From: Hydrogenothermus marinus
GTDB lineage: Bacteria; Aquificota; Aquificia; Aquificales; Hydrogenothermaceae
DNA: 64,000 nt
Assembly: GCF_003688665.1 (NCBI RefSeq)
Contig: NZ_REFO01000012.1
Span: forward strand, 62,001-126,000
Direction of reading: 5' to 3'
Each line of letters starts with the position of its first letter. Within the stretch, counting starts at the first letter, position 1. Below are positions 23,505 through 30,161 of the stretch, piece by piece. The notes under the pieces are model-generated. The model made no database searches. It worked only from the letters and a program-made list of their open reading frames with translations, and was not told the origin of the DNA. The translations under genes were made by a program, and so were the position numbers.

Positions 23505-23675
23505 ATGTCAGTTAAAGAGATTAATTCAGAAGTAGAAAATATTTCTTTTGAATTTTTAAATATCCTTGAAAAAACAAGGAATCCTGAAGAAAGGATAAAA
23601 ATATTTGAAACATATTATAAAGTTCTTTTAATGCTTGAAAAGATTAAAGAGTCTGAAATTAAGATTGATAAATAA
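23505..23675 (+). CDS. 56-aa helical protein of unknown function ahead of apbE
   Basis: Start chosen at ATG 23505, behind AAGAGGTG, rather than the upstream TTG at 23460, which would put the coding region across the Fur-type operator. The product is charged and almost certainly all helical (VSFEFLNILEKTRNP-like pattern, then ERIKIFETYYKVLLMLEKI), soluble, with no cysteine or histidine cluster. It is not recognised. Its 3' end overlaps the start of apbE. It could be a small regulatory or assembly partner, or merely a leader peptide. Confidence 0.5.
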   Translation: MSVKEINSEVENISFEFLNILEKTRNPEERIKIFETYYKVLLMLEKIKESEIKIDK

Positions 23676-24585
23676 AGTTTTATTAATAATTCTTATCTCT
23701 GTTTCTTTTGCTTTTTCTATAGAAAGAACAAAATATTTAATGGGAACTTATGTTTCCATTAATTTACCAAAAGAAAATAAATATTTATTTAAACCTTCTT
23801 TTAATATTATTAAACAGGTAGATTTAAAATTTTCAAAATATAATCCAAAAAGCTATTTATATAAATTAAATAAACATAAAAAAGCAAAAATAGATAAAGA
23901 GTTCCTAAAACTTTTAAATATTTCTCTTCAGATAAATAAAAAAACATATGGATATTTTGATATATCCTTAGGAAATTTAACAAAGAAATATGGAAGTTTC
24001 TATATAAAAGAAAATAAAAATCAAAAATATACAATAGGAATAGAAAATATAAAAATAAAAGATGGATATATATACCTTTTAAATAATATAAGTTTAGATT
24101 TTGGGGCAATTGGTAAAGGATATGCCATTGATAAAATTTCAAATTTTTTAGAAAAAAAGAAAGTAAAAAAAGCTATTATAAAGTTAAGTGGAGATATAAG
24201 ATGTTTTGATATATGTAATATATGTATAAAAAATCCTTTTAAAGAAGGATTTATAAAATGCTTTAAAACAAAATATAAAAATACATCAATATCAACAAGT
24301 GGAAATTATGAAAGATATATAAAGACAAAAGAAAACAATCATTTAATAAATCCTAAAACAAAAAAATCTGAAAAAAATTTTGCTTCTATAACTTTAATAG
24401 GGATAAAAAACAATACATATCTTGATGCTTATACAACGGCAGTATCTGTTATGCCAGAAAAGTTAGCTATAAAATTTTTAGAAGAAAATAAAATTGGATA
24501 TTTTATAATAAAAATTAATGGTGAAATTCTAATTAATAAAAAATTTAAATCAATGGTTGAGTTTACTAATAATATTGAAAAATAA
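23635..24585 (+). CDS. apbE: ApbE-type FAD:protein FMN transferase
   Basis: Covalently attaches FMN to threonine in periplasmic flavoproteins. 306-316 residues. The mature part begins RTKYLMGTYVSINLP, then has GYFDISLGNLTKKYG, the flavin-binding LDFGAIGKGYAIDKIS, a conserved glycine-rich KLSGDI, STSGNYERYI and the metal-site segment DAYTTAVSVM. All are ApbE landmarks. Two TTG starts are possible: 23635, or 23665, which gives a compact signal peptide INKVLLIILISVSFAFS; the latter seems better. A target flavoprotein with the matching TGAT motif is encoded nearby at 25465-25991. Convergent with the membrane gene at 24550, overlapping 36 bases. Confidence 0.88.
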   Translation: MKRLKSLKLRLINKVLLIILISVSFAFSIERTKYLMGTYVSINLPKENKYLFKPSFNIIKQVDLKFSKYNPKSYLYKLNKHKKAKIDKEFLKLLNISLQINKKTYGYFDISLGNLTKKYGSFYIKENKNQKYTIGIENIKIKDGYIYLLNNISLDFGAIGKGYAIDKISNFLEKKKVKKAIIKLSGDIRCFDICNICIKNPFKEGFIKCFKTKYKNTSISTSGNYERYIKTKENNHLINPKTKKSEKNFASITLIGIKNNTYLDAYTTAVSVMPEKLAIKFLEENKIGYFIIKINGEILINKKFKSMVEFTNNIEK

Positions 24586-24996
24586 AATAAATATCATCAA
24601 AAAAATTCCAAATTCAAAGGTTAAAAAAGAAAAGATTTTTAAATAAGCAAAGGAGGAAGATATTTTTAAAATTAAAAAATTAGAAATAATATCTAAAAAT
24701 CCTGCTAAAAAAGTAATTCCAGATAGTATAAAATGATAAATCTTTATTTTAAAAAAGTATAATAAGTGAGAAATAATAAAAATAACTAAAAATATTGCAA
24801 AAAAATGAGGCATTACTATCTCAATAAGCCCTAAAACTGTTTTTGGATTTATAAATTTATCAGGATTTCCAAGAATATGATTAGATATATAACTTACAGT
24901 AAATCCATACTTTTCATAAAATAAAAATATTCCTGTTAAAATCTGAAAAATGAAAAGAATTATAAATAAAGCTATAGTAATTTTTACAATTTTCAT
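24550..24996 (-). CDS. Four-helix membrane protein, paralogue of its upstream neighbour
   Basis: 148 residues with four hydrophobic helices (about 5-27, 58-83, 87-108, 118-143). Two histidines in helix two (MPHFFAIFLVIFIISHLLYF) are 13 residues apart, a spacing that could ligate heme within a membrane helix, though this is unproven. The stretch ILGNPDKFINPKTVLGLIE aligns with LKGNPDIFLEPKDLVSIIE of the neighbouring gene, showing a tandem duplication. It overlaps that gene by four bases. Family not recognised; its operon partner is an FMN-binding protein. Confidence 0.65.
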   Translation of the reverse strand: MKIVKITIALFIILFIFQILTGIFLFYEKYGFTVSYISNHILGNPDKFINPKTVLGLIEIVMPHFFAIFLVIFIISHLLYFFKIKIYHFILSGITFLAGFLDIISNFLILKISSSFAYLKIFSFLTFEFGIFLMIFILFFNIISKLNH

Positions 24997-25468
24997 TTAA
25001 TCTTACCTGTTAGAAAACATACTAAATTTAAAGAATTTACAACTATGCCTATAACAAAAATAGTTATTAAAGAGATAAAATAAATATAAGAAAAAAAATC
25101 AGATAAATATCTAATAGCAAAAATAGAAGATATATAAATAAATACAGATAAAAACCCAAGAAATATAAAGATTAACTTTAAACTATTTTTTATATTTGTC
25201 CTTATTAATATAGAAAAAATTGTTAAAAAGAAAACAATCAGCAAAAAAGACTCTATATGAAGATTTTCTATTATAGAAACTAAATCCTTAGGTTCCAAAA
25301 ATATATCAGGATTTCCTTTTAAAGATAATATTATTTGAGTAGGAAAAAATTCCTTAGATAAATATTTATATCCTAAAAAGAAAAAACAAAAAAATAAAGT
25401 CCTAAGCTAAATAGAACTACTAAAAAATTAATATAATTTGCTTTTTTATGTTGAACTACAAATCTCAT
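24993..25468 (-). pseudogene. Four-helix membrane protein, frameshifted paralogue
   Basis: Translation from ATG 25468 (behind AAAGGATAA) runs 31 codons and stops at TAG 25373-25375. One base added in the adjoining A-runs (plus strand 25375-25394: A5 G A6 C A7) joins it to the downstream frame LGYKYLSKEFFPTQ and on to the stop at 24993. That gives a continuous 158-residue protein with four helices, collinear with the 148-aa product of the next gene. The region length (476) is one base short of a codon multiple. A frame from 25298 on its own would lack the first helix. Confidence 0.7.
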
Positions 25469-25991
25469 TTTATTTTATCCTTTAAAGCAATTTCACATAT
25501 ATATATAGATTCTCTTACTGCATCAGCAGTAGCTCTTGAAGAAAGAGTCGCACCTGTAGCATTTGGAATATTTCTTTTTAAATATGGTGGATTTTTTTAT
25601 CTTTATCCTTTAATAAATTTAACCAGTTTTTATTTAACATATATTCAGGAGGTTCATAAAATGCTATTATCTCTACATCTTTTACTTTACAATCTTTATC
25701 AAAAGATATTAAAATTACCTCATTTTTGGTTCTTACTTTGTGAGAATGAAGTATAGCATAACCTATAATCTTATTATCTTTTTTAACAATATATGTTGTA
25801 AAAATATTTGAATTTAATTTTTTTCCTGATAATTTCTCTATTTTTTTCTTTTGAGAAGATAATAAAAGTATATTTTTCTTTTCATATTTTGCATTTGGAA
25901 AATTTTCCTTTAAAACTTCTTTAGGCATTATTAATAAACCTGCATATGAGATATTAAATAAAACTGTTAAAAATAAAAATATTTTCTTCAT
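25465..25991 (-). pseudogene. Secreted FMN-binding domain protein, frameshifted before its flavinylation motif
   Basis: The intact first frame encodes a signal peptide (KKIFLFLTVLFNISYA) and about 120 residues of an FMN-binding domain, then stops at 25578 after a frameshift. In the next frame the sequence continues as NPPYLKRNIPNATGATLSSRA, shortened here, then ADAVRESIYICEIALKDKIK. NATGATLSS is the ApbE flavinylation motif (D/N-x-T-G-A-T-x-S/T-S/T). The break is at the A7 run (plus strand T7, 25592-25598); one added base restores 175 residues. The restored stop overlaps the next ATG by exactly ATGA, which strongly supports the original frame. Probable periplasmic electron carrier flavinylated by the ApbE at 23635. 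Confidence 0.75.
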
Positions 25992-26151: not shown

Positions 26152-27423
26152 ATGAAAAAACTTGCAGTATTGGCTTTAACTACAGGATTAACTGCTGGAG
26201 TATTTGCTGATTCTGAATTAGATACTATAAAACAAAAATTAAAAACACTTGAGGAACAAAATCAGCAGTTAATTGATGAAATAGCTAATCTAAAGCAGCA
26301 AGTGGCTATACCTGAACTTAGACAAAAACAGTTTGCAGGTCTGGGATATGCAGCTTCTAAGGTTTATTTTTCACCAAAAGGTTTATCTATAGGTGGATAT
26401 GGAGAGATAATTTATCAAAACTGGGAAAAAGATAAAAAAGATACTACAGATTTATATAGGTTTATTCCATATATTGGATACAAATTTACAGATAATATAG
26501 TACTTAATGCAGAAATAGAGTTTGAACATGGTGCAAATCCAGAAAGGGGAGGAGAGGTTGCTGTAGAATTTGCATATATTGATTTCCTTCTAAATAAATG
26601 AGCAAATATAAGAATAGGTAATATGTTAATTCCTGTTGGAATTACAAACTTAATGCATGAGCCTATATTTTTTAATTCTGTAAATAGACCAGAAGTAGAA
26701 ACAAAAATAATTCCATCAACATGGAATGAAAATGGAATAATGATATTTAGTAATACCGATACATTTACATATTATGCTGGAATAGTTAATGGTTTAAGAG
26801 CAGTAAAATCTGGAGAAATTGGTTTTTCTTCTGGTAGCTGGATAAGAGGAGGAAGACAAGCAGGAGCCAAAGCATTAGCTGAAGATTTTGCAGTTGTTGG
26901 TAGATTTGATTATACAGGTATAGAAGGTCTTTTAGTAGGTGGTTCTGTATATAGAGGAAATTCTGGACAAGGAGAATTAGATGCATCAGGAAATAAAATT
27001 GATGGAACTGTCAGTCTTTATGAGGCACACCTTAAATATAACTGGCAAGGGTTAGAACTAACAGGTTTATATGTTAAAGGTTATTTAGATGATGCAGATA
27101 AAATTTCCTCGATAAATAGTGAAGTTATAGGGAAAGAAGCTTATGGGTATTATATTAATGTTGCTTATGATGTTTACCAACTAATTAATAAAGAATCAAA
27201 TTTTGCATTACCTATTTTTGCAAGATATGAAAAATATAATACTCAAGAAAAAGTACCTTCAGGATTTTCAGCAGACAAATCTAATGATAAAATTATATGG
27301 ATTATAGGTTTTAATTTTAAACCTCATCCAAATATAATCCTAAAAGCAGATTATCAGTTTAGAGACAATAAAAAAGAAGATGAAGCTGATGTGTTTGAAC
27401 TTGGAGTTGGTTTCATATCCTAA
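26152..27423 (+). pseudogene. Outer-membrane porin (phosphate-selective porin O/P-like) with an in-frame TGA
   Basis: Signal peptide (1-19), a periplasmic coiled coil (LDTIKQKLKTLEEQNQQLI) and a beta-barrel. Codon 150 (26599-26601) is TGA, and the same frame continues without shift through ANIRIGNMLIPVGI and on to the stop at 27423, giving 423 residues if read through. IPVGITNLMHEP and NRPEVETKIIPSTWNENG are typical of this porin class, and the barrel ends GVGFIS. The TGA is most likely a recent point mutation (for example from TGG). An ATG at 26623 could only start a barrel fragment without signal peptide. Followed 14 bases later by the cytochrome-porin fusion. Confidence 0.7.
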
Positions 27424-27437
27424 CTGGAGGTACAAAA

Positions 27438-30161
27438 ATGAAATATAAATTAGTTTTAACTGGAATTATCTCTTCAGCCTTCTTATATGGATGTAATATT
27501 GGAGGAGCTAATATATCTGATCCAGTTGGAGAGTATGATGAAAATGAGGTAAAGCCTGCTAAATTAGTAGCAGGTTTTCCATGGTTTAGTAAATATAAAA
27601 ATCCAACTGCATACATACCATTAGAATGTTATACAGATACAGGTAAAGCAAAAACAGGAGAAGCTTTTGCTAATCCTTGCTATGTATGTCATAATGCAGG
27701 AAATACACCAGTAGATAATGCAGGGGATTGGGAAAATCAGATTAACTGGCTTAGATTCCCTGCAAATGATAATCCATGGCTGAATGCAGTAGCACCTGAA
27801 AAAACAATTGAAAAACCTTTATCTAATGGAAAAAAATGGACAGAACTTGATGAAATAAATAATCAAGTAAAAGATAATAAAGAAAATAAAATTATTAAAA
27901 TTGATGATTGGATAAAACAGAATAACTGGGAAGATGCTTATAATAATGAAGTTTATATTGGTAGCGATAATCCTTTTGGTCTTGGAAAATACAAATTAGA
28001 TATACCACCTCTCTATAAATGGGACTCAAACAATAACAGATTTGTAAAAACAAACTATATAGATAATGAAGGCTTTATATACTCTTCAGAAAATGAACAC
28101 ACTAACAATACAAACACATGGTGGAGAGCTTATGATTGGAAACACTTTCCAGGATTTTTCCCTACAAATGGAAGACTTGATTCTGCTATGATAAGACTTC
28201 CTGAAGTATTTAGGAAAGAAAATGGACAATATAATAAAGAAATTTATAAAATAAATTTGGCAATACTTGAGTGTGCTGTAAAACAGTTAACAGAAAATTG
28301 TGAAGTAGAACCTTTAGATACAAATTTATTAGACAGATATGGAATTAATTATACAACTACAAATAGTACAATCATATTTAATCAAGTACCAAATAAGTAT
28401 ATGGGAGATGCTTCTAATATTGATGTATGGCAAATAAAATCAGATGGAACTAAAGTTGGACTTTATCCTGTAGGAACAGAACTTGCACATCCTATTTATT
28501 ATATTGATCCAGACTGGGAAAGTAGACCTGATTTAGCAGCAAAAACAGGACATCTAAAAGAGTTCAGGTATATGAAAAAATTAGCTATGCCTGATATAAA
28601 TGTTGGAGGAGAAGAGGAAGAGGAAAATATAGATTACTTTCCTTATGATAATGGCTTAATGCCAAATGATCCAGAAACATGGTTAATGGGTGGATGGATA
28701 GAAGATAAAGATGGGAAATTAAGACCTCAATCAGAAGAAGAAATGGCATTTTGTATGGCTTGTCATGGTGCTATAAGTGGTACAGTTGATAGTACTTTCA
28801 CATATTGGAGAAAATTAACTGGTAGTACTGGTTGGAAAGATACAGATTATGGATATAATAAAGATGTAAAAGATATAAAATATTGGGCTGAAAAACTTAA
28901 TCAGATAGAAGATGAAAATGCTTCAGTATATCTTGGTAAAATTGCAGGTAAGTATGATCCAAAGGATTATGGAGAATACCAACTATACTTTACAATGACA
29001 AATGGTATAGATCATTTTAGAAGTAATAAAGAAGGTATATGTAGAATTTTAGGATATGATACTTATGATCAATCAAATGATAATTGTAAAAAAACAACTT
29101 CTCAAAAAATAGAAGAATTAAAAGAACTTTTAATAAATGTTAGAACTACTTTCATCATCCAAAATGCAAACAACGTTAATAATGATCAATCTAAAAAAAG
29201 CATAACTGATGGTTCCTATTCTATAGATTTAGAGATTGGAAAAGAGTTTTCTAAAAATGATAAAGTATATTTATATTTTGAACATGGTAACGGAACAGGA
29301 GTTACTGATGAATTACAACTATTTGGTAATGTAAATGCTGATGCTACAGGTGAAGAAAGTCTTTATTTAGTTGAAGGTTGGTATGAATATAATTTTCAAA
29401 ATTTTCCTTTAAAATTAACAGTTGGACAACTTGATCCTACCTGTTATATAGATGATAATGAATATGCAAATGATGAAACTATCCAATTTTTATCAGATAT
29501 ATTTGTAAATTCTCCTGCTATAGATTTTCCTTCATCTTCTATTGGAGCAAATTTTCAGTTAAGTCTATTAAATTTTTTAGATATAGACTTTTTATCTATG
29601 TCAGCTAAAAGTAATTTAGAAGATATATTTGATGATATGTTTATTGCTAATCAGTTTAAATTTAAAACAAAAATTTTTAATAAATCTGGAAATTATAGAT
29701 TTTATATTTGGGTAAATACTTCTAAACATACCAAATGGAATAATCCTTTAAAAACAAATGAAAAAAATTATGGTTTTGGAGTAAGTTTTGACCAAGAGAT
29801 AACTGATATTATAGGAATATTTTTCAGATATAGCTGGCAAAACCCAAAAGTTTATATAGAAGATAATGGTTTCAATATTGAACATTTTTGGAGTATTGGT
29901 TTCCAAATAAATGGTAATTTATGGAAAAGAGAAAATGATACTTTTGGAATAGGCTTTGGACAATTAATCCCTTCTAATGATTTCAAAAATTCAGTTAATC
30001 AAAAACTTGAATCAGAAAATCATTTAGAAGCTTACTATAATTTTCAACTTAATAAACATCTAAATTTATCACCAGATTTACAAATAATATGGAATCCTTA
30101 TGGAGACTCTAATAGTGATACTATTTATGTTTTAGGAATGAGAGGTCAATTAAATTTTTAA
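27438..30161 (+). CDS. Di-heme c-type cytochrome lipoprotein fused to an OprB-type porin barrel
   Basis: 907 residues behind a GGAGG site. A short signal ends in the lipobox LYGC (C19). Residues 40-560 form a large extracytoplasmic domain with two covalent heme sites, CYVCH (81-85) and CMACH (439-443), and an acidic patch GGEEEEENIDY near 391-401. From about 565 the sequence is an OprB-like beta-barrel: LTVGQLDP, NEYANDETIQFLSD, GFGVSFDQEI, DTFGIGFGQLI, LEAYYNFQLNKHLNLSPDLQ, and terminal LGMRGQLNF ending in Phe. Heme and barrel in one chain recalls the layout of Cyc2-type cytochrome-porins but with a different, larger heme domain and barrel family. Likely an outer-membrane electron conduit or redox-gated porin; function is inferred. 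Fur-type site upstream of its operon. Confidence 0.8.
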   Translation: MKYKLVLTGIISSAFLYGCNIGGANISDPVGEYDENEVKPAKLVAGFPWFSKYKNPTAYIPLECYTDTGKAKTGEAFANPCYVCHNAGNTPVDNAGDWENQINWLRFPANDNPWLNAVAPEKTIEKPLSNGKKWTELDEINNQVKDNKENKIIKIDDWIKQNNWEDAYNNEVYIGSDNPFGLGKYKLDIPPLYKWDSNNNRFVKTNYIDNEGFIYSSENEHTNNTNTWWRAYDWKHFPGFFPTNGRLDSAMIRLPEVFRKENGQYNKEIYKINLAILECAVKQLTENCEVEPLDTNLLDRYGINYTTTNSTIIFNQVPNKYMGDASNIDVWQIKSDGTKVGLYPVGTELAHPIYYIDPDWESRPDLAAKTGHLKEFRYMKKLAMPDINVGGEEEEENIDYFPYDNGLMPNDPETWLMGGWIEDKDGKLRPQSEEEMAFCMACHGAISGTVDSTFTYWRKLTGSTGWKDTDYGYNKDVKDIKYWAEKLNQIEDENASVYLGKIAGKYDPKDYGEYQLYFTMTNGIDHFRSNKEGICRILGYDTYDQSNDNCKKTTSQKIEELKELLINVRTTFIIQNANNVNNDQSKKSITDGSYSIDLEIGKEFSKNDKVYLYFEHGNGTGVTDELQLFGNVNADATGEESLYLVEGWYEYNFQNFPLKLTVGQLDPTCYIDDNEYANDETIQFLSDIFVNSPAIDFPSSSIGANFQLSLLNFLDIDFLSMSAKSNLEDIFDDMFIANQFKFKTKIFNKSGNYRFYIWVNTSKHTKWNNPLKTNEKNYGFGVSFDQEITDIIGIFFRYSWQNPKVYIEDNGFNIEHFWSIGFQINGNLWKRENDTFGIGFGQLIPSNDFKNSVNQKLESENHLEAYYNFQLNKHLNLSPDLQIIWNPYGDSNSDTIYVLGMRGQLNF

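Follow-up and report, generated by a model that had tools for sequence, protein, structure and literature searches.

The window analysed here is a stretch of 64,000 nucleotides from the genome of Hydrogenothermus marinus. On its forward strand, positions 27438-30161 hold a single gene of 907 codons, identified by open-frame analysis, Pfam and a motif search as a fusion of a diheme lipoprotein and an OprB-type barrel. A ribosome-binding site (GGAGG, 27426-27430) lies ahead of the gene, and the probability that a frame of this length stays open by chance at 27.6% GC is about 4e-35. The protein starts with a lipoprotein signal (residues 1-18) and a lipobox, LYG-C19 (27438-27494), whose cysteine is conserved in the alignment of the family described below. 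It contains two CxxCH heme sites (residues 81-85 and 439-443), the number expected by chance at its composition being ~0.002. The first site (CYVCH, 27678-27692) is invariant in the family, and the second (CMACH, 28752-28766) falls within a P460-like stretch recognised by weak profile matches (residues 412-454, 28671-28799). An earlier note on this DNA had reported the uninterrupted frame, the lipobox and both heme sites, and ORF analysis, the sequence with its family alignment and the motif search bear out all three.

The barrel occupies residues 595-907 (29220-30158, same strand). In Pfam, OprB (PF04966) is the one strong domain of the 907-residue protein; it scores 101.7 bits, the cut-off being 22.9 (E = 7.3e-29), and the match spans positions 15-372 of the 372-position profile. 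The note had named a profile search as a check on its proposal of an OprB-type barrel. A profile made from relatives of the OprB half also matched the solved OprB/Porin B structures 4gey and 4gf4 (E about 1e-16). In the alignment, OprB homology of the fusion starts at KIEELKELLINV, which corresponds to the place where, in other OprBs, the coiled coil ahead of the barrel ends. Since homology to the diheme family extends to the conserved Cys550 and OprB homology begins near Lys557, the joint could be placed at 29085-29110 and the heme part comprises about 530 residues. The OprB-like part does run to a terminal Phe, as had been noticed, but the join lies at about residue 550-557 and not 565; likewise, the heme domain stood, with its length corrected from ~520 to ~530 residues by the homology limits. 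The third-position GC content is 0.14 in the diheme half and 0.11 in the OprB half, that is, codon composition is native in both. Readthrough of two genes was also considered and rejected, as the diheme and OprB parts follow each other without an intervening stop.

The heme half falls into a widely distributed family of proteins of ~540-680 residues, many of them with a lipoprotein-like signal, and shares with it both invariant CxxCH sites and the conserved core. A scan of 84,980 genomes yielded 51 loci of this family, including those in Rhodobacter, Thioclava, Bowmanella, Archangium and Desulfobacterota, and its members are found in Aquificota, Proteobacteria, Desulfobacterota and Myxococcota. 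Identity of the heme half is 71-75% to orthologues of the same genus or family (L002-L005) and ~50% to those of other Aquificota. It deviates at only one of 77 family-conserved positions, and its dN/dS against relatives is ~0.15 with no acceleration, a rough estimate given the high dS.

No Pfam or NCBIfam family scored above its cut-off in the diheme-family members whose cut-offs were shown, and phmmer and hmmsearch gave no PDB match to the family. Of 39 members, 37 matched cytochrome P460 (PF16694) weakly before and around the second heme (E<=1, the best being 1.6e-5), with 11.8 bits for the window copy and 14.6 bits for the homologue L069 against a cut-off of 27. A PDB fold search with an intact homologue returned nothing significant; the best among its few cytochrome-like hits were P460 / cytochrome c'-beta (E about 1.5). 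Based on this resemblance, the family may be read as having a c-type heme region at the N-terminus and a P460-like domain after it, which is a lead and not an assignment to the P460 family. The previous impression that the heme domain resembled no nameable domain is not supported for the region of the second heme.

Some members of the family are larger. Four proteins from Desulfobacterota (L084, L091, L101 and L102) have ~1010-1074 residues and a third CxxCH, and in the two that were scanned (L084 and L101) the extension contains PD40/TolB-like beta-propeller repeats. The genomic surroundings also vary. In many loci outside Aquificota, and in one branch of Hydrogenothermaceae, the diheme gene lies directly downstream of a PhoX-like gene (L040, 7303-10912; L098, L110, L115 and others), which indicates that the family has more than one genomic context.

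Comparison with complete relatives allowed us to identify what the fusion has lost. Their last ~95 residues carry a segment, PSxxRA...Y...V..Q....GRD, that is nearly invariant across phyla in the alignment (P597, S598, R601, A602, Y609, V613, Q616, G621, R622 and D623 in L069 numbering), and residues 599-615 of L069 were modelled as a helix with moderate-to-good confidence (pLDDT ~75-89). The orthologues L002-L005 end in such a different C-terminus of ~95 residues and have no porin, whereas in the window this segment is absent and the barrel stands in place of the C-terminal helix. A search with the segment found neither a copy nor a remnant in the whole host assembly, and no remnant is present in the 64-kb window. 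Because the Desulfobacterota members with C-terminal additions still keep a recognisable PSxxRA...GRD segment, the fusion combines a truncation with an addition.

The OprB half groups with another family of the class. Its nearest relatives, in family f5, share 32-43% identity with it, or 38% at best by a second figure, and it sits on a long branch (1.04); OprBs from the host's own family score far below these relatives against it. No close relative was detected in viral contigs, or among 249 genomes from the phylum to which the Helicobacteraceae locus L104 belongs. The fusion barrel is the sole OprB of the host genome, and it keeps 32 of 35 invariant OprB positions, like other divergent OprBs. 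When AlphaFold2 was run on the full fusion with an alignment lacking OprB rows, residues 555-907 had pLDDT values below 50. Three genomes have a stand-alone OprB-like gene from a different clade at a distance of no more than ~5 kb from the diheme gene (L032, 6482-7540; L033, 13308-14390; L037, 5548-6477). These cassette-adjacent porins were rejected as the origin of the fused barrel, being only 25-30% identical to it and belonging to another clade.

In two families of Aquificota, the diheme gene is part of a cassette (observed in L032, L033, L035, L036 and L037) in which it directly follows the gene of a ~420-residue barrel and is accompanied by an FMN_bind protein (PF04205), by one or two membrane proteins without any Pfam match and, usually, by ApbE. 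The same genes lie next to the fusion, and three of them are broken. The partner barrel (26152-27423, forward strand), 66-71% identical to intact orthologues in L033 and L035, contains an in-frame TGA at 26599-26601. This codon corresponds to a Trp in L033, and the barrel gene is otherwise intact and conserved. On the reverse strand, the FMN_bind gene (25468-25991; PF04205 in intact orthologues) is frameshifted in an A/T run near 25590, leaving its flavinylation motif TGAT in the second frame, and a homopolymer frameshift lies near 25376-25394 in the membrane protein TM1 (24993-25468). The second membrane protein TM2 (24550-24996, reverse strand) is intact, as is the ApbE FAD:protein FMN transferase (23635-24585, forward strand; PF02424, 8e-52). 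With lesions in the partner barrel, FMN_bind and TM1, the cassette of the host genome is damaged.

No comparable break was seen by eye in the other ORFs of the window (~57 kb). If breaks were scattered evenly, three of them within 3.7 kb of cassette genes would be unlikely; this points to local decay, although poor assembly of this region would give the same picture. At the lesion density of the cassette, about two would be expected in the 2.7-kb frame of the fusion and none was observed, which is weak evidence for its maintenance. The dN/dS of the stop-bearing barrel relative to its nearest relative is also low (~0.14) and not accelerated. Together with the value for the heme half, this suggests that the lesions are probably recent. 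The two homopolymer lesions could also be sequencing errors.

The fusion was found in only one of the 136 Aquificota genomes searched for the porin half, and no other diheme-family member with readable ends has a fused barrel. The earlier note had suggested a survey of this phylum and had inferred a new class of cytochrome-porin fusions; no further Aquificota carriers emerged, and the class is not supported. As the relatives keep two separate proteins and three neighbouring genes are broken, the fusion looks less like a new class of electron conduit than like a single event in a gene cluster that has been damaged.

The explanation we favour, and consider probable from sequence comparison, is a real, lineage-specific fusion that arose by deletion or illegitimate recombination in an ancestral flavin-cytochrome cassette that is now damaged. 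Such an event would have placed the final ~350 codons of an OprB gene, in frame, behind the first ~550 codons of the diheme lipoprotein gene. The lipoprotein would thereby have lost its C-terminal helix, and the porin its signal peptide and most of its coiled coil. In the ancestral system, intact in relatives, ApbE would flavinylate the FMN_bind protein. Through this flavoprotein, electrons probably pass between TM1/TM2 in the inner membrane and the diheme lipoprotein, which probably works beside its own separate barrel. Should the fusion protein be produced, its simplest arrangement would be an OprB barrel in the outer membrane with the diheme module in the periplasm. OprB-type barrels normally have their N-terminus in the periplasm, and the heme module would therefore lie at the periplasmic opening of a pore for small solutes, tethered by its lipid at one end and by the barrel at the other.

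A maintained, working fusion is possible, considering the lesion-free frame and the conserved residues of both halves (one deviation in 77 in the diheme half, 32 of 35 kept in the barrel). In a more specific form, the fusion would be a functional new cytochrome-porin that replaced the broken partner barrel, its diheme/P460-like module acting on solutes entering through OprB or exchanging electrons at the pore mouth. The intact frame, the lack of relaxed selection on the heme half and the fact that the only OprB of the genome is the fused one, next to a partner barrel interrupted by TGA, agree with this; its restriction to one genome, the loss of the conserved C-terminal helix and the frameshifts in FMN_bind and TM1 do not, and on balance we regard it as rather unlikely. 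That a maintained outer-membrane fusion, in which an OprB pore feeds a small solute to the attached periplasmic diheme/P460-like module, arose independently of Cyc2 is likewise judged unlikely. An electron wire across the outer membrane, comparable to Cyc2 or MtrAB, appears very improbable. A heme domain, a barrel and a lipoprotein signal in one chain are what such a wire might contain; however, two heme sites 358 residues apart in a domain of ~530 residues are unlikely to line a pore of OprB size, and an OprB-type barrel is far too narrow for a heme domain of this length. Moreover, OprB-type N-termini face the periplasm and the Cyc2 motif is absent. The electron conduit suggested previously thus finds no support, with a periplasmic N-terminus, a narrow barrel and frameshifts in the flavin genes that would feed the fusion.

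An artefact of assembly or sequencing, that is, a misjoin of two loci combined with homopolymer errors, should also be considered, because the draft genome is in 18 contigs and two of the lesions are indels in A/T runs. However, the missing 3' end of the diheme gene did not turn up elsewhere in an assembly that is 99.95% complete, there is no second OprB in the genome, the two halves are joined in frame and have a native composition, and no comparable lesions were seen elsewhere in the window. An assembly join as the origin of the fusion is therefore disfavoured, and the artefact as a whole seems improbable. Compared with these alternatives, the lineage-specific fusion described above is the reading we retain.

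Fused cytochrome-porins such as Cyc2 and Cyc572 are already known, and it has been suggested that such proteins offer an early or streamlined way of exchanging electrons at the outer membrane (PMC8406198, PMC10654088). Cyc2 has one CXXCH, a motif AXPXFAR[Q/K][T/Y] before the heme site and a predicted 16-strand, phosphate-porin-like barrel (PMC8406198); it resembles the fusion in that a single chain starts with a c-type heme domain and continues into an outer-membrane barrel. The fusion differs from it in its two CxxCH sites, its OprB barrel, its lipoprotein signal and its heme region of ~530 residues, and a regular-expression search for P.FAR[QK][TY] found no match in the protein, consistent with the earlier distinction from Cyc2-type proteins. 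Porin-cytochrome complexes of the MtrAB/PioAB type combine a decaheme cytochrome with a 26-strand barrel. Barrel and cytochrome are likewise encoded together in the ancestral cassette, but here a cytochrome with two heme sites is paired with an OprB or a ~420-residue barrel.

With OprB (PF04966; 4gey), the fusion shares the full-length profile match, the terminal Phe and a remnant of the coiled coil ahead of the barrel, but its barrel has no signal peptide of its own and is preceded by a diheme lipoprotein. With the diheme family, it shares both heme sites and the invariant core, but has a barrel instead of the conserved C-terminal helix. The cassette itself resembles the ApbE/FMN_bind clusters for extracytosolic electron transfer (PMC8238504) in its ApbE, its FMN_bind protein with a TGAT motif and its membrane proteins, and differs in that it adds a barrel and a diheme lipoprotein and that its membrane proteins have no Pfam match. 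A word search of the main text of PMC8238504 found mention of neither porins nor Aquificota, and we found no study in the literature of a cassette composed of ApbE, FMN_bind, membrane proteins, barrel and diheme lipoprotein.

The fusion is best called a new singleton variant whose parts differ from those of known cytochrome-porins. Its unfused relatives allow a direct comparison, and the part that was lost can be named. The ancestral cassette of ApbE, FMN_bind, membrane proteins, barrel and diheme P460-like lipoprotein is a candidate redox system and may merit more attention than the fusion.
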